Shown here: piece by piece, positions 33,545 to 62,982 of the stretch
How positions within the stretch are numbered: the stretch's first letter is position 1
Layout of the letters: every line of letters starts with the position of its first letter
DNA from: a virus
IMG/VR virus record: IMGVR_UViG_3300037882_001770
Location: 124,001 to 188,000 of that record
Direction: 5' to 3' (one strand)
Length of the DNA: 64,000 nucleotides
Notes under the pieces: generated by a model
Databases searched by the model: none
What the model was told of the DNA's origin: nothing
The model's input: only the letters and a program-made list of their open reading frames with translations
Made by a program: the position numbers and the translations under genes

Positions 33545-35866
33545 ATGACGCAGATTACAGTAGTAAAAAGAAGCGGTGTAAAAGAACCACTGCATATTGA
33601 GAAATGGCAAGCCCAGGTTGCAAAAGTTTGTCAAGGCATTGCAGACGTTAGTCAATCCATGATTGAAATCAAAGCACAGTTGCATTTTTATGATGGAATA
33701 ACCACACAAGAAATTGACGGCATTACCCTTCGTGCCATTGTAGACTTGATTGACGTTGAATCAAATCCTGATGTAGGACATACCAACTATCAATTTGTAG
33801 CCGGCAAACAACGTTTAAGCATGTTGCGTAAAGATGTGTATGGCACCTACGAGCCGCCGCACCTGTATGAAATTGTAAAACGAAATGTGGCTACAGGCCT
33901 ATATACTGCAGAACTATTAACATGGTACACTGAAGAAGACTGGAACAGAATGAATGACATGCTGGACCACGATAAGGACGAACAATACAGTTATGCTGCA
34001 ATTGAACAACTAATTGAAAAATACCTTGTTAAAAATCGTGCCACAAAGGAAATATATGAAACTCCACAAATTCGCTACATGGTTGCAGCCGCTACTGTGT
34101 TCCATCGAGAAGAACCTAACGCGGCTAGGATGCGCTATATCAAAGAATATTACAACGCAGCTTCCGACGGACTTTTTACTCTTGCTACCCCTGTGCTTGC
34201 TGGTCTGGGGACTCCTACAAAGCAGTTCAGCTCTTGTGTGCTTATCCGTACTGACGATGATCTTGATAGCATATTTGCCTCCGGGGAAATGATGGCCAAG
34301 TATGCGGCCAAGCGAGCCGGTATCGGCTTGGAAGTTGGTCGTCTACGTCCACTAGGTGCTCCCATTAGAGGTGGTGAAGTTATGCACACTGGTATGATTC
34401 CATTTCTAAAGAAATGGTTTGGTGACCTGCGTAGTTGCTCACAAGGAGGTATCCGCAATGCAAGTGCTACTGTATTCTATCCTATTTGGCATTATCAGTT
34501 TGATGATCTTATCGTACTTAAAAACAACCAAGGCACCGAGGAAACCCGAGTGCGTCATATGGATTATGGGGTTGTGCTTAATGCCATGTTCTGGCGTAGA
34601 TTCAAAAACAAAGAAAACATAACATTCTTTGATCCCAACGAAGTTCCGGATCTATATGAAGCATTTTATCGAAACACTGAACAGTTTGAAGAACTCTACG
34701 TCAAGTATGAAAAACAAAAAAATCTGCGCAAAAAAGTTATGGCTGCTGAAGAAGTGTTCAAGTCGGGTATATTGAAAGAACGCACAGATACTGGTCGTAT
34801 CTATCTTGTGTTCATTGATAATGTGATGAATCAAGGACCGTTTGATCCTGAATACCATGCCATTTATCAAAGCAATCTGTGTTGTGAAATCTTATTGCCA
34901 ACTAAATCATTCAAGCGTCTGGATGATGACGCGGGCCGTATCGCACTATGCACCTTAGGCTCGATCAACTGGGGTGCTTTCCGCAATCCTGAAGACATGC
35001 GCAGAGCCTGTAGAATCCTACAGCGTAGCCTGTGCAACATACTAGATTATCAAGACTTTTTGAGTATCCAAAGCCAACTCAGCAATCAAGAAATCCAATC
35101 CCTGGGCATTGGCATTACTAACTTGGCCTATTGGCATGCCAAGCGTGGTCTGCTATATGGCGAAAAGGATGCCTTACAAGAAGTTAAAAGTTGGATGGAG
35201 CACCAGGCCTACTATCTAACTGAAGCCACAGTGGAATTGGCCAAAGAACGTGGACCTTGCAGTCATTCGGGACTTACACGTTATGGTCAGGGAGTATTTC
35301 CATGGGAACTACGTGCGCCAGCAGTGAATGAGCTGGCCAATTTCAAACCAGAATTAGACTGGGAGAAGTTGCGTGAGGTTATGAAAGTACACGGCGTTCG
35401 CAACGCTACCTTGATGGCAGTGGCACCTGTGGAAAGTTCCAGCGTGGTGATCAATTCGACCAATGGCATTGAAATGCCCATGAGTTTAATCACAGTAAAA
35501 GAAAGCAAGGCTGGAAGTTTGATTCAGGTGGCACCCGAATACAACAAATTAAAATCAAAGTACCAACTCATGTGGGCTCAGAAGGATTGTGATGGCTATC
35601 TCAAAACAGCGGCTGTGATTGCGGCCTATGTGGATCAATCAATTTCGACCAACACATTTTATAATCCAGCACACTGGGCAGACCGTAAGGTACCAACTAC
35701 TTTGATTGCTAAGAACTTGATGCTGGCACATCGTTGGGGACTCAAAACATTCTATTATAGCCTGATTAACAAGCAAGGTAGCAAAGGTCAAGACGAACCA
35801 GCGGAAGCAAAACTAGAAGTGATCGACTTTGATGATCAAGAGGACTGCGAAAGCTGTAAACTATAA
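33545..35866 (+). CDS. nrdA: Class I ribonucleotide reductase, large subunit
   Basis: 773 residues. It reduces NDPs to dNDPs. Present are FSSCVLIRTDDD (one active-site Cys), SNLCCEILLP (thiyl/redox Cys region), GSINWGAF, the NATLMAVAPV stretch and C-terminal CESCKL, the redox pair that passes electrons from glutaredoxin/thioredoxin. The nrdB partner lies at 37845 with three genes between. It shares one base with the next gene. Confidence 0.95.
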   Translation: MTQITVVKRSGVKEPLHIEKWQAQVAKVCQGIADVSQSMIEIKAQLHFYDGITTQEIDGITLRAIVDLIDVESNPDVGHTNYQFVAGKQRLSMLRKDVYGTYEPPHLYEIVKRNVATGLYTAELLTWYTEEDWNRMNDMLDHDKDEQYSYAAIEQLIEKYLVKNRATKEIYETPQIRYMVAAATVFHREEPNAARMRYIKEYYNAASDGLFTLATPVLAGLGTPTKQFSSCVLIRTDDDLDSIFASGEMMAKYAAKRAGIGLEVGRLRPLGAPIRGGEVMHTGMIPFLKKWFGDLRSCSQGGIRNASATVFYPIWHYQFDDLIVLKNNQGTEETRVRHMDYGVVLNAMFWRRFKNKENITFFDPNEVPDLYEAFYRNTEQFEELYVKYEKQKNLRKKVMAAEEVFKSGILKERTDTGRIYLVFIDNVMNQGPFDPEYHAIYQSNLCCEILLPTKSFKRLDDDAGRIALCTLGSINWGAFRNPEDMRRACRILQRSLCNILDYQDFLSIQSQLSNQEIQSLGIGITNLAYWHAKRGLLYGEKDALQEVKSWMEHQAYYLTEATVELAKERGPCSHSGLTRYGQGVFPWELRAPAVNELANFKPELDWEKLREVMKVHGVRNATLMAVAPVESSSVVINSTNGIEMPMSLITVKESKAGSLIQVAPEYNKLKSKYQLMWAQKDCDGYLKTAAVIAAYVDQSISTNTFYNPAHWADRKVPTTLIAKNLMLAHRWGLKTFYYSLINKQGSKGQDEPAEAKLEVIDFDDQEDCESCKL

Positions 35867-36507
35867 TGTTAGAAACTATTTGCGAAGTAATGAATGACGC
35901 TTACAAGCGCAACTGGATCACTAGTCGTGATGGCAATGTGTCAATACGTCATCACGACCGTGATCACTTTTATATCACACCGTCGGGTGTACGTAAGCAG
36001 ACCCTACAGCCTGATCAGTTTAAAAAAATTGGTATTATGTATCAACCAGTCAACAGATGGAACTGGACCGAGTTGCCCTACACTGATATCAGTGCTAATC
36101 TAAAGCCCAACGGTGAAATACCGCTACACTTCGGACTACAGAAAAAAATGGGCCAACATGCAGACGAAGTTCGTGTAGTAGTACACGTTCACCCTACATA
36201 CTGTATTGCGGCCATGCACGCCGGGATTGATCTGAGCACAGTCAGCGATGCATTTCCCGAACTTAATCGTTACACCAAGGTAGCACCCAATGTGAGCGAT
36301 GTGCCTCCTATCAGTCAAGAGCTTGCAGACCAGTGTCATAAGATGTTGCAATTAGATGACGCTGGCAATATTGCCTATGACATTGTAGGTATCAAAGGGC
36401 ACGGCGTAGTTGCAATTGATGTTAGTCCATGGCGCGCCTATGAACATATCGAAAGGCTAGAACACATTTGCAAGATTGTGCTTGCTTCTGGCAACTATGG
36501 TAAGTGA
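35866..36507 (+). CDS. Class II aldolase/adducin-family protein
   Basis: 213 residues. DGNVSIRHH and TPSGVRKQ phosphate-binding loops, EIPLHFG with the catalytic Glu, HVHPTY with two zinc-site His and a C-terminal GHGVVAID third His. The set fits a zinc-dependent L-fuculose-phosphate aldolase-type enzyme or a related dehydratase. It lies between nrdA and nrdB, an unexpected place. Substrate unknown. Confidence 0.85.
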   Translation: MLETICEVMNDAYKRNWITSRDGNVSIRHHDRDHFYITPSGVRKQTLQPDQFKKIGIMYQPVNRWNWTELPYTDISANLKPNGEIPLHFGLQKKMGQHADEVRVVVHVHPTYCIAAMHAGIDLSTVSDAFPELNRYTKVAPNVSDVPPISQELADQCHKMLQLDDAGNIAYDIVGIKGHGVVAIDVSPWRAYEHIERLEHICKIVLASGNYGK

Positions 36508-36742
36508 AAGATTTTCCTGGTTGCCTGTACAGGTTACTAGCGGCAAATGGATCTGGCTAAGTCGGTATTACCAGCACAAATCCTTGTACGATGAAACTAC
36601 AGGACGGCCTCCGATAAATAGCTTGCATTTTATTTGGACCGAAACTGCCGGAGAACGCACCTGGAGATTGTTGAAAGAACGTGCAGTACACAATAGAAAC
36701 ATATGGAATGACCCAAATTTAATCAATCAAGACAAGATATAA
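36497..36742 (+). CDS. Small protein of unknown function
   Basis: 81 residues from the ATG overlapping the aldolase end by 11 bases. Trp-rich (RFSWLPVQVTSGKWIWLSRYY). No domain recognised. Confidence 0.6.
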   Translation: MVSERFSWLPVQVTSGKWIWLSRYYQHKSLYDETTGRPPINSLHFIWTETAGERTWRLLKERAVHNRNIWNDPNLINQDKI

Positions 36743-36744
36743 CA

Positions 36745-37848
36745 ATGGAATATACCAAATTAAAAGAATTTTCAGTTGTCTACACAGATAGAAGTTTGAA
36801 TCACATGAGTGATGAATTTGTAGACATAATGAAAGATATCAGTGGAGTTCTTAAAACGGCCTACACAGCTGACAGTGCTGTGATTATACCCGGCTCTGGA
36901 ACATTCGGCATGGAAGCAGTGGCTCGACAGTTTGCCGACAATAAACATGTATTGGTTATTCGTAATGGTTGGTTTAGCTATCGCTGGACACAAATATTTG
37001 ACATGGCCAAAATTACTGATACGGTGACTGTGATCACAGGTCAGCAAGCCGAAGACACAGCACAAGCTCCGTTTGTTCCGGCCGACATTGACCAAGTTGT
37101 TGACTACATACGCCAATATCGACCTGCTGTGGTGTTTGCGCCACATGTGGAAACCAGTTGCGGCATCATTTTACCTGATGCCTATCTAGCCCGAGTGGGC
37201 AAAGCATGCCGCGAAGTTGATGCGTTGTTTGTACTGGATTGTATTGCCAGCGGCGCGGCTTGGGTCAACATGAAACAGTTGGACATTGACGTAGTAATCA
37301 CAGCACCGCAAAAAGGCTGGTCAAGTGCGCCATGTTGCGCCTTGGTCGCACTTAGCTCACGTGCTAGACAACGACTAGATACCACTGTTAGTACTAGCTA
37401 TAGTATGGATGTGCTGAAATGGACGCAGATAATGGAAACCTATGAAAAGGGTGCGTTCATTTATCATACCACTATGCCAACCAATGCATTAAAAGAATTA
37501 CGTGATACCATGTTGGAAACTGAACAGATAGGATTTGACGATCTTAAAAGTTTACAGTATGACCTGGGCACGCAGGTACGTGACCTGTTAATCGGCCACG
37601 GATATCCTAGTGTTGCGGCCATTGGATATCATGCTCCAGGAGTAGTAGTTTGTTATACCACAGATAAAGATATGCAAAATGCCAGTAGATTCAGAGCACT
37701 AGGATATCAGACTGCAGCCGGTGTACCATTACAGGTAGGCGAACGCAGTGACTTTCAAACATTTCGAATTGGTCTGTTTGGAATAGATAAATTGATGAAC
37801 ATCAGTTCGACAGTATCAACACTTAAAGAGGCATTAGAACAATTATGA
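36745..37848 (+). CDS. Class V PLP-dependent aminotransferase
   Basis: 367 residues. PGSGTFGMEAVARQF is the PLP-phosphate loop, HVETSCGIILP and LDCIASGAAW follow, and APQKGWSS holds the Schiff-base Lys. The closest types are alanine-glyoxylate, serine-glyoxylate or 2-aminoethylphosphonate aminotransferases. It overlaps nrdB by four bases. With the class II aldolase it may make or use a small amino or hydroxy compound. No pathway is complete in the window. Confidence 0.88.
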   Translation: MEYTKLKEFSVVYTDRSLNHMSDEFVDIMKDISGVLKTAYTADSAVIIPGSGTFGMEAVARQFADNKHVLVIRNGWFSYRWTQIFDMAKITDTVTVITGQQAEDTAQAPFVPADIDQVVDYIRQYRPAVVFAPHVETSCGIILPDAYLARVGKACREVDALFVLDCIASGAAWVNMKQLDIDVVITAPQKGWSSAPCCALVALSSRARQRLDTTVSTSYSMDVLKWTQIMETYEKGAFIYHTTMPTNALKELRDTMLETEQIGFDDLKSLQYDLGTQVRDLLIGHGYPSVAAIGYHAPGVVVCYTTDKDMQNASRFRALGYQTAAGVPLQVGERSDFQTFRIGLFGIDKLMNISSTVSTLKEALEQL

Positions 37849-38945
37849 GCCAGGCACAATACAACTTAAAATCAAAAACAGATTATCTCAATCGCAAGAT
37901 GTTTCTGGATCCAGCTGGTCCGGTTACCATTCAACGTTTTGAAGAAGTCAAGTACAACAAGATTGTAAAGTTTGAACAAGAAGCACGTGGATTTTTTTGG
38001 GTACCAGAAGAAATCTCACTGACCAAAGATGCTGGAGATTTTAAAGAAGCTAGCGACACAGTACGTCATATTTTTACCAGCAACCTACTACGTCAAACAG
38101 CTTTAGACAGCTTGCAAGGACGTGGTCCTACACAGGTGTTTACTCCTGTAGTAGGTATTCCAGAACTGGAAGCACTCATGTACAACTGGGGATTCTTCGA
38201 AACCAACATTCACAGCCGTAGCTACAGTCACATTATTCGCAACATCTATAATGTGCCCAAAGAAGTGTTCAACACTATCCACGAGACTAAAGAGATTGTG
38301 GAAATGGCTTCGAGTATTGGTTTATACTATGACCGTTTGCACATGATCAACTGTCGTAAAGAGTTGCAGGAAGAATTTGACGAGTACGAACATATCAAAG
38401 CAATCTGGTTGGCACTCAATGCTTCGTACGGGTTGGAGGCCTTCCGCTTTATGGTAAGTTTTGCTACTAGTTTAGCTATGGTAGAGAATCGTATCTTTAT
38501 TGGCAATGGCAATATTATCAGTCTGATCCTACAGGACGAGATTTTGCACAAGGACTGGACCGGGTGGATTATCAATCAGGTGGTCAAGGAAGATCCTCGC
38601 TTTGCCCGTGCCAAGGCCGAATGTGAACAAGAAGTTTACAACATGTATCTGGATGTAATTCGTGAAGAAAAGCAATGGGCTGATTACCTGTTTAACAAGG
38701 GCCCAGTAATTGGACTCAATGCCAACATTCTCAAAGACTTTGTGGACTTTACAGCGGCACATGCTTTGAAAGAGATTGGTATCAAGTATCTAACACCTGC
38801 ACCAAAGACTACACCAATTCCTTGGTTCAACAAGCATGTTAACACCAGTAACAAACAAACTGCACTACAAGAGAATGAATCAACTAACTATGTTATTGGT
38901 GCAATGAGTGATAGTCTTGACTATGACGCATTGCCTAGTTTATAA
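37845..38945 (+). CDS. nrdB: Class Ia ribonucleotide reductase, small subunit
   Basis: 366 residues; holds the diiron-tyrosyl centre. ALDSLQGR gives the first Asp ligand, SRSY the radical Tyr (Y127), a LEAFRF Glu is present, and DEILH gives an ExxH pair. The helix with the other pair reads E119-T-N-I-H123, i.e. ExxxH, one residue longer than the ExxH in E. coli NrdB. This may be a phage-clade variant. Electrons come from NrdA. Confidence 0.93.
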   Translation: MSQAQYNLKSKTDYLNRKMFLDPAGPVTIQRFEEVKYNKIVKFEQEARGFFWVPEEISLTKDAGDFKEASDTVRHIFTSNLLRQTALDSLQGRGPTQVFTPVVGIPELEALMYNWGFFETNIHSRSYSHIIRNIYNVPKEVFNTIHETKEIVEMASSIGLYYDRLHMINCRKELQEEFDEYEHIKAIWLALNASYGLEAFRFMVSFATSLAMVENRIFIGNGNIISLILQDEILHKDWTGWIINQVVKEDPRFARAKAECEQEVYNMYLDVIREEKQWADYLFNKGPVIGLNANILKDFVDFTAAHALKEIGIKYLTPAPKTTPIPWFNKHVNTSNKQTALQENESTNYVIGAMSDSLDYDALPSL

Positions 38946-51773: not shown

Positions 51774-53695
<1,922 letters not shown>

Positions 53696-53711
53696 TTCAG
53701 TAATAAATTGT

Positions 53712-53719
53712 TATAAATA
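53712..53719 (+). promoter_or_regulatory. T4-type late promoter (TATAAATA)
   Basis: Perfect consensus, followed by a strong hairpin and AAAGGAG before the hsp20 gene. Confidence 0.78.
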
Positions 53720-53722
53720 CTA

Positions 53723-53750
53723 CTGTGGATGCCGATGGTCGGGTCCACAG
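53723..53750 (+). promoter_or_regulatory. 5'-terminal hairpin leader 2 (hsp20)
   Basis: CTGTGGA / TCCACAG 7-bp stem with inner CCGA / TCGG. The predicted +1 (about 53725) is in the stem. Similar in sequence and layout to leader 1, including the CTTGCTTA stretch before the ribosome site. Confidence 0.72.
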
Positions 53751-53783
53751 TATTATGTCACTTGCTTAATAAAGGAGAAAACA

Positions 53784-54227
53784 ATGACAAAAATCACAAC
53801 TCTGGACCTCAGTCCATTCTATCGCAATTCTGTTGGTGTAGACAAATTATTTGACCGTTTAATGGGCCAAATTGATGCTGGCGGCACTACACAAAACTAT
53901 CCACCTTACAACATTGTAAAAACTAGCGACAATACCTACGAGATTCAAGTAGCTGTTGCAGGCTTTACACAAGGCGAGGTTACTGTGAATGTCAATGAAG
54001 GCAATTTGATCATCACTGGCGAAAAGCTGTCAACAGATTTACCCGAAGGTCATGTTTATGAGCATCAAGGTATCAGTGCTCGTCGTTTTATACGCACATT
54101 TACTCTAGCTGATTATGTAGAAGTAACCAGTGCCGTTAGCCGAGATGGTATCCTTACTGTCAAGCTAGAACGACAAGTTCCTGAGGCAATGAAGCCTAAA
54201 ACTATTGCGATTTCATACGAATCGTAA
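53784..54227 (+). CDS. Hsp20 small heat-shock protein
   Basis: 147 residues, alpha-crystallin domain at about 38-130 (YEIQVAVAGFTQGEVTVNV, GHVYEHQGISARRFIRTFTL, GILTVKLE) and C-terminal IAI (IXI) motif. It binds unfolding proteins. Late promoter and hairpin leader precede. Confidence 0.94.
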   Translation: MTKITTLDLSPFYRNSVGVDKLFDRLMGQIDAGGTTQNYPPYNIVKTSDNTYEIQVAVAGFTQGEVTVNVNEGNLIITGEKLSTDLPEGHVYEHQGISARRFIRTFTLADYVEVTSAVSRDGILTVKLERQVPEAMKPKTIAISYES

Positions 54228-54235
54228 TATAATTA

Positions 54236-54243
54236 AGTAAATA
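54236..54243 (+). promoter_or_regulatory. T4-type late promoter (AGTAAATA)
   Basis: Just before the AGTGGAG / CTCCACT hairpin (54245-54269) and the clpS ribosome site. Confidence 0.62.
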
Positions 54244-54244
54244 C

Positions 54245-54269
54245 AGTGGAGGGCATATTGCTCTCCACT
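54245..54269 (+). promoter_or_regulatory. 5' hairpin leader 3 (clpS)
   Basis: 7-bp stem AGTGGAG / CTCCACT with an 11-base loop, two bases after TAAATA. Same plan as leaders 1 and 2 but not clearly homologous. Confidence 0.6.
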
Positions 54270-54290
54270 ATAATAACAAAGGAACACCGG

Positions 54291-54599
54291 ATGTCTCAAG
54301 CAGAAACAGTTGTAAAACCCGCAGTCAACCAAATTCTTAAAGAGCCACCAATGTTTAAGATCATCTATCTTAATGATAGTCAGACCACCGTGGAATTTGT
54401 CATTGACACACTGATTGATTTTTTCAGTTATACTCCCGAAACTGCATTAAAAATTACACAAGATATACACGAAATTGGGTCGGCAGTGGTAGCAGTGTTA
54501 CCATACGAAATTGCCGAACAAAAAGGAATTGAGGTCACTGTGTGTGCAAGGACTAACAATTATCCTTTGCAAATTAAATTAGAGCCAGAAAACGCCTAA
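54291..54599 (+). CDS. clpS: ClpS protease adaptor
   Basis: 102 residues. MFKIIYLNDSQTTVEFVIDTL and FFSYTPETALKITQDIHEIGSA match ClpS, which delivers N-degron proteins to ClpAP. The pocket motif NDD of E. coli reads NDS; Asp36 is Ser and the gate Met40 is Val, while the pocket His is kept. Its choice of N-end residue may be changed. It follows hsp20. Confidence 0.92.
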   Translation: MSQAETVVKPAVNQILKEPPMFKIIYLNDSQTTVEFVIDTLIDFFSYTPETALKITQDIHEIGSAVVAVLPYEIAEQKGIEVTVCARTNNYPLQIKLEPENA

Positions 54600-55525: not shown

Positions 55526-55885
55526 ATGCACATATTATTTGGCAAAGAGCAAGCAACAGAATTATCAGACAAATACACTGTATTAGAACTTGACACCATA
55601 AAGGTTGGATTAAATGGTCCAGAAATAACTGCCTATTGTGCGGTAGAAAACATTCCTTTTGACGAAGTTATGGAGTTGGATACACTAAAAAATATTCATA
55701 ACCAACTAATGTCCGACTATAAAACACGCAATTGGCAAGAATGTTTGGCCAGTATTGACACCCTTAGGGGCAGTTGGAGCGGAGAGTTGGACAGTTTTTA
55801 TACCGAAATGACAGATCGAATTAAAAACTACATAACAAACAATCCAGGACCAAATTGGTCTAATGTGATAATCAAACAGTCGTAA
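55526..55885 (+). CDS. Protein of unknown function
   Basis: 119 residues, HILFGKEQATELSDKYTVLELD, mixed alpha/beta. No family named. Divergent from the phosphoesterase gene. Confidence 0.65.
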   Translation: MHILFGKEQATELSDKYTVLELDTIKVGLNGPEITAYCAVENIPFDEVMELDTLKNIHNQLMSDYKTRNWQECLASIDTLRGSWSGELDSFYTEMTDRIKNYITNNPGPNWSNVIIKQS

Positions 55886-55915: not shown

Positions 55916-55945
55916 CTAGGTCCTATAAATAATAATAGGAGCTAG
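55916..55945 (+). promoter_or_regulatory. Palindrome around the csgF late promoter
   Basis: Arms CTAGGTCCTAT and ATAGGAGCTAG, 11 bases with one mismatch, separated by 8 bases. It flanks and overlaps TATAAATA and reaches into the AGGAG ribosome site. Possible operator or RNA fold. Confidence 0.6.
55924..55931 (+). promoter_or_regulatory. T4-type late promoter of the curli cassette (TATAAATA)
   Basis: Perfect consensus; predicted +1 at about 55937, at the first base of AGGAG; leader about 12 bases. Confidence 0.75.
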
Positions 55946-55948
55946 AGT

Positions 55949-56404
55949 ATGATAATAATAATAAGATTTACTCTGCTATGCATAATTGCGACCTTCCTTC
56001 AAGCCGTCGCATTTTCGGCAGAACTGACTCATCAGTTTTATAGTCCGTCCTTCAGCGGTATCGGCTGGTCTAGTCACGTGCTGACTATTGAACAAATGGA
56101 AGCCGCAAGAACACAAAAAAATAACGACCTGGCACGATCACAACAAGAAAAAGCTGAACGTGATGCTAAAAATACCAACTTGGCCAAGTTCCTGGTCAAT
56201 GTAGAATCACGTATCTACGCACAGCTGAGTAAGCAGTTAGCTGATGCCATGTTTGCCGAAGGCGGTGGCGATTCCGGCAGCATGAATTTTCAAGGAACCA
56301 GTATTAGTTGGGTTAAATCGGCCACTGATGTAACCTTGACTATAACTGAGGCAAGCGGTGGTACCACACAGGTCACAGTTCCTTTGGCGAGCTTTGCGTT
56401 CTAA
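55949..56404 (+). CDS. csgF: CsgF-like curli assembly factor
   Basis: 151 residues, signal peptide (about 1-23, AVAFSA/ELTHQ). The mature N-terminus ELTHQFYSPSFSG resembles CsgF's start (TFQFRNPNFGG), which plugs the CsgG pore. Then a helical part and a C-terminal TEASGGTTQVTVPLASF, like CsgF's end. It should help CsgG export or anchor the curlin. It shares one base with csgG. Confidence 0.8.
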   Translation: MIIIIRFTLLCIIATFLQAVAFSAELTHQFYSPSFSGIGWSSHVLTIEQMEAARTQKNNDLARSQQEKAERDAKNTNLAKFLVNVESRIYAQLSKQLADAMFAEGGGDSGSMNFQGTSISWVKSATDVTLTITEASGGTTQVTVPLASFAF

Positions 56405-57186
56405 TGAAAAGACTTGCTTTACTTTTCTGCACTCTGGCCTTGACAGGTTGTGCCAATCTGCAGCAGATTGTGTTTCAGGAAGAACCAATCAAATTAGAAC
56501 CCAAACAAAATCTCATGATGCAATTACCGGTACTCGACGGCCCACCTATGACAGTGGCAGTATATGGATTTAGAGATTTAACCGGTCAAATGAAACCCAA
56601 TGAAAGGCTGGCTGTATTTTCAAAAGCAGTAACGCAGGGCGGTGAAGTTTTTTTAATCAAAAGTTTAAAAGATTCAAAAGGATGGTTTCGCGTGGTTGAA
56701 CGAGTAGGACTTGATAATCTTATCAAAGAACGACAGCTGATTCGAAACCAAAGAGAAGTTTACGAGGGCAAAGACGCCAAGCCTTTGAAACCCTTGACTG
56801 TGGCCGGTGTCATACTGGAAGGCGGTATTGTTGGTTATGACAGCAACATCAGATCAGGCGGTAATGGTGCCAGATTTCTTGGCATAGGCGGTAGTCAACA
56901 GTATAGAGTAGACGAAGTTACCGTTAGTCTAAGGTTAATTTCCATCAGCTCAGGAGAAGTACTGTTAACCAATGCTGTAAGTAAGACCATTTACTCTACA
57001 GCACATAATGTGGGAGTTTTACGATTTGTAGATGCCGGAACCAAGGCACTGGAATTGGAAAATGGAGCCGCATTGAATGAGCCCACAACCTATGCAGTAC
57101 GTGTGGCCATTGAACAGTCTGTTTACGAATTAATAATCGAAGGACAGCGAAAGGGGCTTTGGAATTTTGTCCAGAGCAAAAACTAA
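56404..57186 (+). CDS. csgG: CsgG outer-membrane secretion channel lipoprotein
   Basis: 260 residues. Lipobox LTGC (Cys15), then PMTVAVYGFRDLTGQMKP, SKGWFRVVERVGLDNLIKERQ and VDEVTVSLRLISISSGEVLLT match CsgG. CsgG forms a nonameric outer-membrane pore that exports curlin. CsgG-type genes are known from some phages, where a lysis or pore role was also considered. The curlin gene follows two bases before its ATG. Confidence 0.93.
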   Translation: MKRLALLFCTLALTGCANLQQIVFQEEPIKLEPKQNLMMQLPVLDGPPMTVAVYGFRDLTGQMKPNERLAVFSKAVTQGGEVFLIKSLKDSKGWFRVVERVGLDNLIKERQLIRNQREVYEGKDAKPLKPLTVAGVILEGGIVGYDSNIRSGGNGARFLGIGGSQQYRVDEVTVSLRLISISSGEVLLTNAVSKTIYSTAHNVGVLRFVDAGTKALELENGAALNEPTTYAVRVAIEQSVYELIIEGQRKGLWNFVQSKN

Positions 57187-57187
57187 A

Positions 57188-57814
57188 ATGAAATCAAGAA
57201 AGACAAGCGTTGGTAAGTTGCTGAGTAAATTACTTACTGTAGCAGGTATTACATTTATGAGTTGTACCATATCGGTTGCTAACGAAGTTTATGTTGAGCA
57301 GGTAGGCGACAGTAGTACTGTCAACATTACTCAGCAAGGTTCGGACAATCGTGTAGGCACAGCATTATCTCCAGCATTTATAGGCAGTGGCAGCAACACT
57401 GTAAATATTGATCAAATTGGTAGTACCAACACTTTGGACATGACAGTCAACGGTGCGGGAACCGATGTTACAGTGTCAACTACAGGCAGCAACAATGTAC
57501 AGGAGATTACCTGCGGTACTACACAAAGTGCAGGGTGTAGCGGCAGTTCCATTACACAAACTATAGTAGGTGATTCAAATACTATAACACAAGATTTAGG
57601 TTCCGGAGCCAACCATACCAGTACTATTGCAGTAACAGGAGATACCAACTCTGTTACTCATACCAGTACTGCAACTGGAACAACTTCAGCAGATATCGCT
57701 GTAGCAGGCAATACTAACACAGTATCAGTTAACCAATCAGGAATGTTAAATCATAGTGTTACAGTTAATAGCAGCGGCAATCTTAATAACATTAGCATTA
57801 TTCAGCAAGACTAG
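57188..57814 (+). CDS. Curlin-repeat (CsgA/CsgB-like) secreted protein
   Basis: 208 residues from ATG 57188, signal peptide about 1-33. Repeats of the type SxxxQxGxxNxxxxxQ, e.g. VYVEQVGDSSTVNITQQGSDN, NTVNIDQIGSTN, SITQTIVGDSN, TVSVNQSGMLN, ISIIQQD. This is an amyloid curlin pattern, and its place after csgG fits an exported cargo. It may coat infected cells or aid aggregation. Confidence 0.85.
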   Translation: MKSRKTSVGKLLSKLLTVAGITFMSCTISVANEVYVEQVGDSSTVNITQQGSDNRVGTALSPAFIGSGSNTVNIDQIGSTNTLDMTVNGAGTDVTVSTTGSNNVQEITCGTTQSAGCSGSSITQTIVGDSNTITQDLGSGANHTSTIAVTGDTNSVTHTSTATGTTSADIAVAGNTNTVSVNQSGMLNHSVTVNSSGNLNNISIIQQD

Positions 57815-58838
57815 TCTATCGGCGGTGGGTCGAGTTACAGAACAAACTGGGCCCACCGAGATAGTAAGAAACAAACGGTCACAGCCGAGTACAGTTAATG
57901 CTCCAGTCGAGATGAACGACACTATTGTCACGGCCAAAGCAAATGCCAAGCTGACCTTTGACGACAATACCACTGTGAATATAACCGAGCAAAGTAAACT
58001 GGTAATCGACGATTTTGTATATGATTCTAAACAAGGATCGGGTAAGCTGGCTATGAAAATGGTGCAGGGCACTGCCAGGTATACATCGGGACAAATAGCC
58101 AAAAATTCTCCGCAGAATGTCAATATTAAAACTCCTACCGCCACTGTGGCAGTGCGTGGCACAGACTTTTCAATGACCGTGGACGAGCTGGGCCGTAGCC
58201 TTGTCATGTTGCTGCCTAGCTGCGATGACAAAGGTTGTGTGACCGGCGTCATTGTTGTTTCAAATGAATCTGGATCGGTGTTGATGGATGTGGCTTTTCA
58301 AACCACAATAGTTTCTAGTTTGACTGCACCGCCGAGTGCGCCAGTGATTGTCAACATTGATCAGGCCAATATCAACAATCTACTGATTGTAAGCCCGCCC
58401 ACTGAGGTCAGTGCCAATGATCAAGAAAAAAATCAACAAACTGCACTTGATATAAATTTCTTGAACAAGGATTTACTCAAATACAACGAGTTAGACAAAA
58501 ATGAATTAGAAAAGTTTAGATCCCTGGATATTAATTTTTTGGATATAGACCTATTAGTAAATCTGTTAGATCTAAGTACTGCCCAACTAGCCACCAGTCA
58601 AGAACAACTTTCTAACGAAGCCAGTTTGTTGCCAAAATATTCGCCTGGCTCTGGAATAACCTATTATTTCAGCGACGACGAAAGCCGAGTAACTCTCCGC
58701 AAGGCCACTACCCATACAGCGGAGATTACGGTAGCGGTTGATCATGAGGTCATGATCAACATTACTCAAGATGGTACAGCAGTAACTCAACAGGTTAACA
58801 AAGGCGGTACATCAACTATTAATATTATTCAACGTTAG
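57756..58838 (+). CDS. FecR-domain periplasmic protein with curlin-like tail
   Basis: 360 residues. GTG 57756 starts inside the curlin gene in another frame, and the overlap (59 bases) encodes a signal peptide (LIAAAILITLALFSKTSLSA). The FecR core is TEQTGPTEIV ... VNAPVEMNDTIVT and the PTATVAVRGTDFSMTV motif near residues 125-140. The last residues (VMINITQDGTAVTQQ ... TINIIQR) resemble curlin repeats. FecR-type proteins sense periplasmic state; here the partner is probably the next gene. Confidence 0.85.
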   Translation: MLQLIAAAILITLALFSKTSLSAVGRVTEQTGPTEIVRNKRSQPSTVNAPVEMNDTIVTAKANAKLTFDDNTTVNITEQSKLVIDDFVYDSKQGSGKLAMKMVQGTARYTSGQIAKNSPQNVNIKTPTATVAVRGTDFSMTVDELGRSLVMLLPSCDDKGCVTGVIVVSNESGSVLMDVAFQTTIVSSLTAPPSAPVIVNIDQANINNLLIVSPPTEVSANDQEKNQQTALDINFLNKDLLKYNELDKNELEKFRSLDINFLDIDLLVNLLDLSTAQLATSQEQLSNEASLLPKYSPGSGITYYFSDDESRVTLRKATTHTAEITVAVDHEVMINITQDGTAVTQQVNKGGTSTINIIQR

Positions 58839-58930
58839 CTCTAGAGCATATACGCCGTTTATTTTTTGCAATTAGTTCTTAAATAAAAAGCAGGCATAAT
58901 AACTACAACAAGCCGGCTACGGAAGATTTT

Positions 58931-58958
58931 ATACCCACTTTATCGTGGGTATTTTTTT
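58931..58958 (+). terminator. Rho-independent terminator
   Basis: ATACCCAC / GTGGGTAT 8-bp stem, 6-base loop, seven T residues. It lies between the FecR gene and the cyclase gene, so these may be separately transcribed. Confidence 0.88.
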
Positions 58959-58971
58959 CCTTAAATAACTT

Positions 58972-61023
58972 ATGTTGAAAAAAATCTTAACAAGTCCGTG
59001 GACTGCACTATTAACACTAGCCTTAGTAGCAAGTTTGCGTGTAGCAGATCCAATCTTTGTCGAAAGCGTTCGTCTACGCTACTTTGACACACTAGTGACC
59101 GACCAACCCGCAGAGGTTATTGGTGTAAGCGTTGTAAACATAGATGAGAAAGCTCTGGAACGTTATGGTCAATTTCCTTTTAGCCGAGACATCTACGGTG
59201 CTATCATCCGTGATCTATACAGCCGTAATGCTGGCCTAGTTGTGTTTAATGTTCTTACTCCTGATCGAGATAGAATGGGCCGGGACAAGGAGTACATACA
59301 GGCTCTTCGACAATATCCAACAATTCTTCCCAGTGTTGGGTCAACAACAACAAGAAACCAACCAAAAAATCCAGGATCGGCAATCATAGGCCCGTATGGG
59401 CTAGATGCGTTTATTAACTATCCTGGTATTATTGCTAATATACCTGCTGTTGAAAATGCTGCTACAGGAGTTGGTATAGTAAACACTTTGCCTGAAGTTG
59501 ACGGCGTGGTGCGTCGTATGCCCTTGGTTGTTGCTAATAATGGTAAGCTATACCCAAGTCTGGCCATGGAAACAATGCGTGTAGCTGCCGGGGACTCAAC
59601 ATTCCAAGTTAAGATTAATGAACAGGGTGTTGAAAAAATGCGTATTCCAAAGTTTGGTCCTATTGCGACAGATAGTTTAAGTCGTATCTGGATTGACTGG
59701 AGCTTGGTTCCAGAAAAATATAGTTTAATGAACTTGCCCAAGGACTTTGACGGCGAAATAGTTATTGTCGGGGTGTCGGCACAAGGATTAAGTAATCCAA
59801 TAGCAACAAGTTTAGGCGAAATGTTGCCACAAGATTTACAAGCAGCAGTATTGGGCACAGTGATTGCCAATAAAGATCGACCAGCTATTACACGTCCGGA
59901 CTGGGCCGACGGAACAGAGATTATATTTGTATTGGCAGCAGGTGTTTTAGCATTATTTTTATCAAGGTGGACTTATGTTGGAATTTCTTTTTCTGTGCTG
60001 TTACTCGGTAGCAGTGTATTACTTTCTGGTTGGTTGTATCGAAGTCATGCTTGGCTTGTGGACGCAACTTTTCCGATCGCTAGCCTTGTGCTTGTGCTTC
60101 TCCATGCCTATGGTGTTAAGTTTGTAAGTGAGTTCTTACAGAAGCAGGCTATCAAAAAGCAGTTTGCTGGCTACTGCTCTAAAGAAGTTGTGGAGATTCT
60201 ACAGAAAGACCCTGGCTTAATCAAGCGTGGTGTACGCAAAGACGTTAGTGTAATGTTTAGTGACCTGCGTGGATTTACCCCCATTGGTGAACACTACGGT
60301 GACGATGTAGGCGGCCTAGGCAAGTACATGAACGGTTATATGGATGCAATCTCAAAACCTATCATGGACAACAATGGCATGGTCATCAAGTATGTAGGTG
60401 ATGCCTCAATGCACATACACGGTGCTCCGATTGATGATGCTAGTCATGCACATACCATTGTCAAAGTTGGTCTTGAAATGTTAGATGCTGTTGATGAATA
60501 TACTAAACAGATGGAAGCACAAGGTTTACCACCGGCTGCAATGGGTTGGGGTTGTAACACAGGTATTGGTTTTATTGGTGAGATGGGGTCAACTGATAGA
60601 CACAGTTACGATATCTTGGGCGACATGGTTAGTACTGCGGCAAGACTAGAAGCACGTTGCAAAGCATACGGTGTACTATGTATTATTGGTGCTGAGACAT
60701 ACAACAGAACCAAAGACGATTTTTTCTACTTGCTATTGGATAACTTACAACCCAAGGGCAAAACTGTAGCAGATTTGATCTATACAGCACTCCGTACCAA
60801 AGGCGCTGACTACAGTAAAGACCTTGCTACACATAATAAGATGCATGAGTTGTACCGACAGAAACAATTTGATGCGGCTGTTATATTGTGCAAAGAATTG
60901 CACGGCAAGTTTGGCGGGCAAATGGACAAGTACTACAAGATGTGGGTCGAACGTTGTGATTTTATGAAACAACAAAATCTGTCAGACAACTGGAACGGTG
61001 AGTTTGTAGCTCACGAAAAATGA
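58972..61023 (+). CDS. CHASE2-domain adenylate cyclase (class III)
   Basis: 683 residues. N-terminal membrane segment, extracytoplasmic CHASE2 domain (about 30-310), three membrane segments (about 318-395), cytoplasmic cyclase domain (about 415-600). Metal Asp D431 (FSDLRGFT) and D477 (VGDAS), and R558 are present, as is the adenine-site Asp in SYDILGD. The transition-state Asn is Ser (S554). Likely makes cAMP, perhaps weakly. A TTAAATA box lies four bases upstream of the ATG. Confidence 0.9.
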   Translation: MLKKILTSPWTALLTLALVASLRVADPIFVESVRLRYFDTLVTDQPAEVIGVSVVNIDEKALERYGQFPFSRDIYGAIIRDLYSRNAGLVVFNVLTPDRDRMGRDKEYIQALRQYPTILPSVGSTTTRNQPKNPGSAIIGPYGLDAFINYPGIIANIPAVENAATGVGIVNTLPEVDGVVRRMPLVVANNGKLYPSLAMETMRVAAGDSTFQVKINEQGVEKMRIPKFGPIATDSLSRIWIDWSLVPEKYSLMNLPKDFDGEIVIVGVSAQGLSNPIATSLGEMLPQDLQAAVLGTVIANKDRPAITRPDWADGTEIIFVLAAGVLALFLSRWTYVGISFSVLLLGSSVLLSGWLYRSHAWLVDATFPIASLVLVLLHAYGVKFVSEFLQKQAIKKQFAGYCSKEVVEILQKDPGLIKRGVRKDVSVMFSDLRGFTPIGEHYGDDVGGLGKYMNGYMDAISKPIMDNNGMVIKYVGDASMHIHGAPIDDASHAHTIVKVGLEMLDAVDEYTKQMEAQGLPPAAMGWGCNTGIGFIGEMGSTDRHSYDILGDMVSTAARLEARCKAYGVLCIIGAETYNRTKDDFFYLLLDNLQPKGKTVADLIYTALRTKGADYSKDLATHNKMHELYRQKQFDAAVILCKELHGKFGGQMDKYYKMWVERCDFMKQQNLSDNWNGEFVAHEK

Positions 61024-61163
61024 TCATAAACATTTTTGTTGACACCTATGTATGGTGGTTCCTACAGTTGTATTTTTTACCATACCGTTTTCCTAAATAC
61101 GGAAGTGAAGTTGATTGTATTATACGCCAGTACAGTTTAAATGGCTTGTGTCAACACCGTTAA
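61020..61163 (+). CDS. Very small protein (47 aa)
   Basis: ATG overlaps the cyclase stop by four bases. MIINIFVDTYVWWFLQLYF is hydrophobic and aromatic. The end overlaps the convergent gene by four bases. Support is only the overlap; function unknown. Confidence 0.45.
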   Translation: MIINIFVDTYVWWFLQLYFLPYRFPKYGSEVDCIIRQYSLNGLCQHR

Positions 61164-61573
61164 TTAACAGGTAATCGAAGATGGAAGGCTAAGGCACTTG
61201 CTCCACCAGAATTAACTTGCGGTATGGCAATAGCACAAATGTACCGGTAACATACTTCTGGAAAAGCCATCGGTGTTACTGTGTAGGCACTATATCCGGT
61301 GACCAATCCTGTACCAATGCCTAAGTCCCAGGGTCCGTCTTTATATACACTATAACGAGCATAACCATAGGCACTGCCGCGATATTCGCTATTGCGATAC
61401 CACCCACCTGACACGGTCCAACGATCTGCAACAGTTTGTTCAATGCCTATTCCGTAATTAACTCCGTTGAATCCAGCACGATCATGTATGCTGACCCCGT
61501 TGATTTGAACGTATGTTTTTGCTAGAGATAAGTTGCATACTGTCAGTAACAGTATGGCTACAAGTGTTTTCAC
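61160..61573 (-). CDS. Secreted or outer-membrane-type protein
   Basis: 137 residues, GTG start, signal peptide (VAILLLTVCNLSLA). The rest has alternating beta patterns with Tyr/Gly (GGWYRNSEYRGSAYGYARY), as in small outer-membrane barrels. No family named. It starts the minus-strand membrane cluster. Confidence 0.65.
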   Translation of the reverse strand: MKTLVAILLLTVCNLSLAKTYVQINGVSIHDRAGFNGVNYGIGIEQTVADRWTVSGGWYRNSEYRGSAYGYARYSVYKDGPWDLGIGTGLVTGYSAYTVTPMAFPEVCYRYICAIAIPQVNSGGASALAFHLRLPVN

Positions 61574-61581
61574 ACCAGTAC

Positions 61582-61878
61582 TTATTTGTCTTTTTGTGTA
61601 ACTTCGTTAATTTGTGATTCGGCTTCTACACGTTCATGTTCGATAGTCTTGCCGCGTAGGTGTAGTACTGTATTAACCTTTTGGTTTAAACGAATCAAGT
61701 CGTTGTCCAGCATACGGATACGATCTATTAAAGCAATAAGAACGGTATTGGCGTCGCTGATAACAGGCTTGACTTCTGTAGTAGCCCAGGTCCATACATA
61801 TTTGATGATAAATCCCATACCGACTGCCATCACAATCGGAAACCCATATTTGTTTACTAATCCAACTATATCACCCAT
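61582..61878 (-). CDS. Holin-like small membrane protein, paralogue A
   Basis: 98 residues. Membrane segment at about 12-28 (GFPIVMAVGMGFIIKYVW), then a coiled coil (ALIDRIRMLDNDLIRLN). Paralogous to the gene at 62655 (same GFPI start and DxRxxxxxxDxIR pattern). A BhlA/UviB-like holin is possible. Confidence 0.6.
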   Translation of the reverse strand: MGDIVGLVNKYGFPIVMAVGMGFIIKYVWTWATTEVKPVISDANTVLIALIDRIRMLDNDLIRLNQKVNTVLHLRGKTIEHERVEAESQINEVTQKDK

Positions 61879-61879
61879 T

Positions 61880-62077
61880 TTATTTTTTCCACGGACTTGT
61901 TGCTCCGCCCTTTTCTAATCTGTCTATTTTTTGTTGCAGGTTACGGTTGAGGTCAATCCATTGCTTACCGTTTTGTTTCATTTCTTCCAGTGTCAACAAC
62001 GCATACAAACTTATAATGATAGCGATGCCACCCATGATGAACCCAATGAATGCATAGGTAACTTCCAATGTCATCAT
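61880..62077 (-). CDS. Small membrane protein
   Basis: 65 residues, membrane segment about 7-28, then a charged coil. ATG overlaps the stop of the upstream minus-strand gene. Spanin- or holin-accessory-like by layout only. Confidence 0.58.
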   Translation of the reverse strand: MMTLEVTYAFIGFIMGGIAIIISLYALLTLEEMKQNGKQWIDLNRNLQQKIDRLEKGGATSPWKK

Positions 62078-62214
62078 GCTAGTAATCCCACTACTACGCC
62101 GGCTACAAATGCTATCAAGGCAGCCTTGGCCAAATCTATATCGGTCCAGATTGGATGATTATGTCCATATTCAGCAATGCTTTTAGGCAAATTCCCAGGC
62201 TTAAATTTATTCAT
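62074..62214 (-). CDS. Very small membrane protein (46 aa)
   Basis: MNKFKPGNLPKSIAEYGHNH at the N-terminus and a C-terminal membrane segment (AALIAFVAGVVVGLLA). Stop overlaps the next ATG by four bases (ATGA), start overlaps the upstream gene by eight bases. Likely real. Confidence 0.58.
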   Translation of the reverse strand: MNKFKPGNLPKSIAEYGHNHPIWTDIDLAKAALIAFVAGVVVGLLA

Positions 62215-62395
62215 TATTCTTTCCGTCTCTTAAAAATTTTTCTAGTGGATCTACTTTGACCAGCATAGCACGACCGTTGACATTTTTAACTTGGAAGTAG
62301 TCGCCGCCCTTCCACCCTAACTTGTCTATATCAAGTTCAGAATCTAATAGAATTCTATTAGGTTCTAAATCCCAGGTATAATCGCAATATAACAT
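62207..62395 (-). CDS. Small conserved phage protein
   Basis: 62 residues, MLYCDYTWDLEPNRILLDSE, with GWKGGDYFQVKNVNGRAML, a compact beta fold. Conserved-looking in T4-like phages; function unknown. Confidence 0.65.
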   Translation of the reverse strand: MLYCDYTWDLEPNRILLDSELDIDKLGWKGGDYFQVKNVNGRAMLVKVDPLEKFLRDGKNNE

Positions 62396-62655
62396 TACTT
62401 GGCCTTGTTTATATCACTTAATTGATCAGCACAAGCACGAATGTCTTTGCTTAGTGCGCCTACTCCAATTTTTTGTTCAACTTCTCTAGCAATATCGTGT
62501 AAATGTATTACCAAGTATTCGATATCAAAATTCATTATATTTGCTCCTTCTTTGAGAAACTTTTTGAGTTTTCTAGTTCTTATTTCTTCTTCACAGATGG
62601 CCATATTTCTTATAATTTGCTCTCGGCGATTTGTTACGTTTTCCCAAGTGGACAT
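62395..62655 (-). CDS. Protein of unknown function
   Basis: 86 residues, helical, MSTWENVTNRREQIIRNM. One-base overlap with both neighbours. Confidence 0.65.
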   Translation of the reverse strand: MSTWENVTNRREQIIRNMAICEEEIRTRKLKKFLKEGANIMNFDIEYLVIHLHDIAREVEQKIGVGALSKDIRACADQLSDINKAK

Positions 62656-62936
62656 TAATCTCTCCTTGCATCGTTTTTGCCGTCGGCACGAGCAATACGG
62701 TCAGTATCGGGCTTTAATCCTAGTGCGTTGCTTACAATTGTATCAATACGGATGACATCGTGATTCATTGTTTTAACACGATTGTCCAAGGCTGTGATAA
62801 TTCCGGCCATGCCTTTGATGGCCGACAACACGCCAGCCAATAACAGTTTGATAGTTAGATATACAAAATAGCCACCAGCTAGTGCCGTAGCAATTGGAAA
62901 ACCCAGATCCCCAATAATTTTGAAGATTTCATTCAT
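62655..62936 (-). CDS. Holin-like small membrane protein, paralogue B
   Basis: 93 residues. Hydrophobic N-terminal part (LGFPIATALAGGYFVYLTIKLLLAG), then a coil and a basic tail. Paralogue of 61582. AGGAG upstream and a late promoter at 62975-62982 in this strand, with a 38-base leader. Confidence 0.62.
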   Translation of the reverse strand: MNEIFKIIGDLGFPIATALAGGYFVYLTIKLLLAGVLSAIKGMAGIITALDNRVKTMNHDVIRIDTIVSNALGLKPDTDRIARADGKNDARRD

Positions 62937-62974: not shown

Positions 62975-62982
62975 TATTTATT
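62975..62982 (-). promoter_or_regulatory. T4-type late promoter (AATAAATA), minus strand
   Basis: Drives the minus-strand cluster of small membrane proteins (62936 down to 61160). Confidence 0.6.

Follow-up and report, generated by a model that had tools for sequence, protein, structure and literature searches.

Curli-type secretion genes in phages raise the question of what a virus gains from machinery that exports an amyloid. We analyzed a 64,000-nucleotide (nt) stretch of viral DNA (positions 124,001 to 188,000 of IMG/VR record IMGVR_UViG_3300037882_001770; hereafter the window), in which five plus-strand genes at positions 55949–61023 encode a CsgF-like protein, the pore lipoprotein CsgG, a curlin-repeat protein, a FecR-domain protein, and a CHASE2 nucleotide cyclase. 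These genes were first noted in a first-pass annotation made from the sequence, and Pfam searches confirm all five at that position and on that strand. Type VIII secretion (curli) modules of this kind are already known from phages, and the cassette is a further member, here carried by a much larger phage. The module most likely serves late-expressed curlin display, linked to sensing at the envelope and possibly also to lysis.

A known phage module in a larger genome

The cassette lies in a 317,493-bp virus contig that also encodes T4-type TerL, major capsid protein, portal, sheath, gp21, and gp55, all homologues of proteins of phage Melnitz. TerL, capsid, portal, and sheath homology, together with gp55 and TAAATA late promoters, identifies the carrier as a T4-like myophage, as the first-pass annotation had proposed. 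The annotation had also raised the concern that host DNA was misassembled into a phage contig, an explanation that is now vanishingly improbable. The genes are of bacterial origin and similar operons occur on bacterial chromosomes, but the closest relative, a separate 344-kb contig, has an identical gene order from GroES to past the cassette, and 80 further IMG/VR contigs and two isolate species carry the cassette. Moreover, guanine-cytosine content is even and a phage late promoter motif is present. The cassette genes are under strong purifying selection: the ratios of non-synonymous to synonymous substitution rates against the nearest relative are 0.071 for CsgF, 0.063 for CsgG, 0.154 for curlin, 0.050 for FecR, and 0.076 for the cyclase. 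An Rfam search of the window returned no match.

The combination of curlin, FecR, and cyclase in one phage, initially thought to be new, has precedents in marine viruses, published between 2020 and 2022. When 50,697 phage records were searched at the nucleotide level, Methylophilales phage Melnitz and Pelagibacter phage HTVC008M emerged, and both records contain csgF-csgG-curlin-fecR-curlin-cyclase; the FecR and second curlin genes of HTVC008M are annotated as ‘hypothetical’. A curli cluster has been described in pelagimyophages (PMC7029224) and, for podoviruses as well as myoviruses, the complete set with FecR and cyclase (PMC9599517); the Melnitz cassette has been discussed separately (PMC9004378). 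HTVC008M (gp014–gp019) and uncultured pelagiphages share the order csgF-csgG-curlin-fecR-(curlin)-cyclase with the window, and HTVC008M also encodes, unlabelled, two small proteins considered below as A and B (gp011–gp012). Unlike the window phage, HTVC008M has a 147-kb rather than a 317-kb genome and two curlin genes, and its cyclase has the canonical asparagine but lacks a C-terminal domain. Melnitz contains the same genes (gp98–gp103, with A and B as gp97 and gp96) and the same D..S cyclase active-site type, but has a second curlin gene, a 141-kb genome, and a CsgG that is 49% identical. The E. coli csgBAC/csgDEFG operons likewise encode CsgG and CsgF homologues and curlin repeats, whereas the phage genome has no detected CsgE, differs at the residues of the CsgG pore constriction loop, and encodes a FecR-curlin protein and a cyclase in place of CsgB and CsgD.

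A single scan of viral contigs with CsgG yielded 89 loci (numbered with the prefix L), 80 of which were kept, on contigs of up to 364 kb. Locus content was scored with profiles built from the window, Melnitz, and HTVC008M. The genes csgG, curlin, and fecR are consecutive on one strand in 78 of 83 loci, that is, in all whose contig continues past csgG. Immediately before csgG lies csgF, except in L037, L045, L052, L058, and L059, where it is ∼2 kb upstream, as it also is in the truncated L090. The analysis extends the curli module to phage contigs of 280–364 kb.

The predicted export core and its curlin cargo

CsgF (55949–56404, +) carries a signal peptide and matches its family over its full length (PF10614, 3.5e-16), as expected of the CsgF component of a type VIII system; a PDB search with it gave no useful match. 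CsgG (56404–57186, +; PF03783, 1.5e-53) is a lipoprotein with the lipobox LTGC, aligns along its length to solved CsgG chains (1.7e-47), and retains G15 and C16 invariantly. In bacteria CsgG forms a nonameric pore in the outer membrane, and family, lipobox, and alignment together predict that the phage protein is such a pore within a curli/type VIII secretion system.

The putative cargo (57188–57814, +) comprises about seven strand-loop-strand repeats with the Q-x-G-x2-N units characteristic of curlin (PF07012, 7.6e-6). Its score is above the curlin cut-off, and those of CsgF, CsgG, FecR, CHASE2, and cyclase are far above theirs; the failure of CsgF or curlin searches that the annotation had allowed for did not occur. 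An AlphaFold2 model has 14 regularly spaced strands (pLDDT, the program's own confidence measure, of 85). The glutamine, glycine, and asparagine of each repeat are invariant among relatives, while the remaining identity falls to ∼30%. Because this ladder is invariant, export of an amyloid by the phage cassette is plausible.

A FecR-domain protein with a curlin-like tail

The fecR gene (57756–58838, +) encodes a signal peptide, a FecR domain (PF04773, 1.4e-12), a disordered linker, and a C-terminal beta segment. This tail (∼58656–58838) is curlin-like: it aligns end to end with the last curlin repeats (P 1e-4; best of 60 column shuffles 0.025, reversed sequence 0.14). In the window, fecR begins 59 nt before the curlin gene ends. 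Across 52 loci, some of them near-copies, the frames overlap by 59 nt in 30 and by 77 nt in 22, which suggests that translation of the two genes is coupled.

The FecR domain itself is of the periplasmic kind. In a fold search it matches PupR (probability 1.00) and the surface-anchoring domain 5ix9, with the matches confined to the FecR domain; among NCBIfam models, surface adhesins come closest, though with scores far under the cut-off. We considered and rejected a FecR-type anti-sigma regulator, two defining features of which fail. Only ∼24 signal peptide-like residues precede the FecR domain, with no N-terminal cytoplasmic anti-sigma domain or membrane span, and no STN-bearing TonB receptor partner (PF07660) was found in the phage's own genome. 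Since the protein lacks an anti-sigma domain and carries a curlin-like tail, a role as nucleator or anchor of the fiber fits better than one as iron regulator.

The first-pass annotation had described FecR and the cyclase as the cassette's own signalling pair. Both domains are indeed present, but the pairing is doubtful: FecR lacks the cytoplasmic anti-sigma domain, and the cyclase gene has often moved or inverted relative to fecR among relatives. FecR lies beside non-curli alphaproteobacterial CHASE2 cyclases in only 2 of 43 loci (∼1.5-kb flanks), too few to establish a ready-made FecR-cyclase pair.

A CHASE2 cyclase with two active-site types

The fifth gene (58972–61023, +) encodes a CHASE2 sensor joined to a class III nucleotide cyclase (PF05226, 8.6e-35; PF00211, 1.8e-14). 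Its active-site residues are D431, K473, D477, D547, S554, and R558. It thus has the two metal-binding aspartates, the adenine-selecting lysine and Asp/Thr, and the transition-state arginine of class III enzymes; the metal aspartates, lysine, and arginine are kept in all 62 aligned cyclases. Two types can be distinguished. An Asp + Ser type accounts for 32 of the 62, including the window and Melnitz, and a Thr/Ser + Asn type for the other 30, including HTVC008M and the bacterial copies of the cassette. All 17 bacterial CHASE2 cyclases examined have asparagine, and the Ser type was not seen among them.

Quick trees of the two halves of the protein disagree about these types. On the catalytic half the types form two clades separated by one change, whereas the same label requires 11 changes on the CHASE2 half, at least nine of them forced by well supported branches. 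The simplest reading of this discrepancy is that the catalytic half has repeatedly been swapped between the two types. The gene's position is also loose, ranging from overlap with fecR (−4, −20) to a distance of 5.2 kb, and in 12 of 50 distinct cases the gene is encoded on the other strand. A 119-amino acid (aa) protein related to the cyclase C-terminal domain is encoded at 55526–55885 (+) and precedes csgF in about a dozen relatives; its membership in the module is uncertain.

A conserved holin-like pair

The five genes do not mark the full extent of the module, which continues past 61023 to 62936 on the other strand. There, 0.6–1.9 kb beyond the cyclase, lie two small paralogues (phrog_18771): protein A (61582–61878, −), a 98-aa holin-like membrane protein and cassette partner, and the 93-aa protein B (62655–62936, −). 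Of 83 loci, 56 have such proteins close to the cassette, almost always in two copies, with the remainder limited by flank length; in HTVC008M and Melnitz the pair directly precedes csgF. A reverse scan anchored on A found 80 loci, 77 of which have both copies. In those with full flanks, csgF/csgG/fecR lie within 10 kb in 34 of 39, and the cyclase is present in the other five. Searches of the 50,697-record phage collection with A, B, FecR, and cyclase all hit the identical six records. The CsgG hits comprise these six and a further six, namely five records of giant Caulobacter/Brevundimonas phages, whose CsgG/HfaB-like protein is distant (26–27% identity), and one 1.5-kb Salmonella fragment.

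Protein B is often the most conserved member of the module. It is 100% identical in the nearest relative, L016, where CsgG is 85% identical, and B and CsgG identities are 94/68% in L075 and 74/54% in L088; L018 is an exception. Thirteen of 16 A/B family members match the ‘holin’ family phrog_4898 (best 2.2e-6), the window's A weakly (0.011 over 21 residues). Pfam holin models did not match A or B, and a search of the PDB with their profile gave no useful match.

A ‘histidine kinase, sometimes two’ has been placed before csgF (PMC9599517). From their position and size, the A/B genes are probably these published kinases. We reject the kinase assignment itself: at 93–98 aa, A and B are too short, and they matched no kinase model in Pfam or NCBIfam and no catalytic ATPase domain.

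Probable late expression

A T4-type late promoter motif, TATAAATA (55924–55931, +), ends 17 bp before csgF. Among hexamers in front of the genes of this genome, its core, TAAATA, shows the strongest enrichment (11-fold). TAAATA is found before csgF in 51 of 64 distinct relatives, HTVC008M among them, whereas shuffles give a mean of 3.2 and a maximum of 9. Because the motif is enriched genome-wide and precedes csgF both in the window and in these relatives, late expression of the cassette is likely. TAAATA also stands upstream of protein B (62975–62980, −) and directly before the cyclase gene (58962–58967, +). The latter is weak evidence for a promoter and would make the message leaderless; of about 50 distinct loci, 25 have the motif ahead of this gene. 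An intrinsic terminator-like hairpin separates fecR from the cyclase gene (58931–58952, +; 8-bp stem followed by a T run, −11.5 kcal/mol), and it is one of five such sites in the region, where 7.5 are expected by chance.

Upstream of csgF (window, L016, L017, L044, L064, and L068), the TAAATA is often enclosed by an inverted repeat that leaves it in the loop; one example is CCCCGTG-TAAATACTAAG-CACGGGG. The late promoter and a hairpin may therefore overlap upstream of csgF. Genome-wide, stems are not more common at upstream TAAATA sites (8 of 55) than at all TAAATA sites (41 of 189).

Bacterial copies of the cassette

A genome scan located the complete cassette on bacterial contigs of Hyphomonas sp. 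TMED17 (L127, 705 kb) and of two Caulobacteraceae metagenome-assembled genomes (MAGs; L105 and L108). In L127 and L105 it is flanked by metabolic genes. FecR and the cyclase thus do occur in bacterial curli operons, contrary to the literature. As in the phages, csgF-csgG-curlin-fecR-CHASE2/cyclase run in one direction; unlike in the phages, the A/B pair is absent, and such copies are rare (2 of 398 genomes of the order).

All cassette CsgGs group together, to the exclusion of other bacterial curli CsgGs (99% support), and the cassette cyclases do the same (100%), which argues that the cassette is one evolutionary unit. Within it, the bacterial copies nest in the phage radiation beside viral contigs L091 and L092; L093, near-identical to L091, carries phage-type nucleotide-metabolism genes. 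Transfer from phage to bacterium and several captures would each account for this pattern. Five further contigs (L096, L098, L099, L101, and L102) were rejected as bacterial copies, being short and grouping with or beside phage sequences, and all but L102 carry A/B. They are phage-like contigs in Rhodobacteraceae, Flavobacteriaceae, and Pelagibacter MAGs and probably reflect binning contamination.

Possible functions of the module

We prefer the reading that this type VIII module displays curlin on the host surface late in infection, and give it an even chance of being correct. A gp55-type late sigma factor would drive csgF-csgG-curlin-fecR late in infection, and CsgG and CsgF would build an outer-membrane pore without CsgE. 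Curlin would leave through this pore and polymerize at the cell surface, where the FecR protein, via its curlin-like tail, could nucleate or anchor the fiber in the manner of CsgB. FecR might also signal the state of the fiber to the inner-membrane CHASE2 sensor, whose cyclase would produce a cyclic nucleotide as the cell dies. The A/B pair would be a phage-specific core that links the module to inner-membrane permeability and probably to the timing of lysis. The likely benefit would be that amyloid on the cell or on lysis debris retains nearby cells or progeny, or blocks superinfection. In its boldest form, which we put forward tentatively, this becomes a seven-gene late envelope machine: a curlin exporter, a FecR-curlin fusion nucleating or capping the fiber, a type-swapping CHASE2 cyclase, and a holin/antiholin-like A/B core that couples amyloid display to lysis.

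Several results weigh against curlin display. CsgE (PF10627) was not found in the phage's own genome by a search that detected the E. coli control, and the curlin model had no significant PDB match in a fold search (CsgA fibril, E 0.17; FapC, 0.087). The cyclase, for which the first-pass annotation had suggested an effect on host cyclic AMP, has serine (S554) at the position of the transition-state asparagine, and no cyclic nucleotide-binding protein or cyclic AMP receptor was found in the phage record. The holin label of A/B derives mostly from the N-terminal membrane segment and a database name, and co-occurrence of the pair with the cassette in isolates amounts to only two phage species. 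Finally, cells infected with Melnitz showed no clumping (PMC9004378).

The main rival, which we consider doubtful, is that the CsgG/CsgF pore acts in lysis or permeability and, together with A/B, sets the moment of lysis, with curlin and FecR serving as a plug or gate rather than an exported fiber. A pinholin/secretin role in lysis has been proposed for the Melnitz cassette (PMC9004378). The late promoter motif, the holin matches of A/B, their position directly before csgF in both isolates, and their conservation are consistent with this proposal. However, a pore-only role leaves unexplained the invariant curlin ladder and the presence of curlin in 78 of 78 loci, and the bacterial cassettes show that the curli part can exist without A/B. 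Moreover, CsgG is a pore of the outer membrane, whereas holins act in the inner membrane.

An unlikely alternative, proposed in PMC7029224 and PMC9599517, is that the open pore imports nutrients, for example iron chelates or cobalamin, with FecR as iron regulator, or that surface amyloid only blocks superinfecting phages. Absence of the CsgE gate, which assists export in E. coli, speaks for an open pore. Against this alternative, the FecR protein lacks an anti-sigma or cytoplasmic part, no STN-bearing receptor was found in the genome, and the curlin-like tail better fits a structural role; the late promoter motif speaks against early metabolic help.

The analysis questions two published readings, FecR as an iron regulator and the absence of FecR and cyclase from bacterial curli operons. 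The function of phage curli has been a standing question since 2020, to which late promoters, the FecR-curlin fusion, the conserved holin-like pair, and bacterial copies lacking that pair offer experimental handles.

Neighboring genes

Between the cyclase and protein A, the gene at 61160–61573 (−) encodes a protein of outer-membrane type whose PHROG match is PagP (lipid A acylation); among relatives, only the nearest, L016 and L018, have it close to the cassette. Upstream of the cassette, genes for phage GroES, GroEL, Hsp20, and ClpS lie side by side (51774–54599, +), and the Hsp20 gene also has TATAAATA, at 53712. Farther upstream, both the large and small subunits of a phage ribonucleotide reductase are encoded at 33545–38945 (+).

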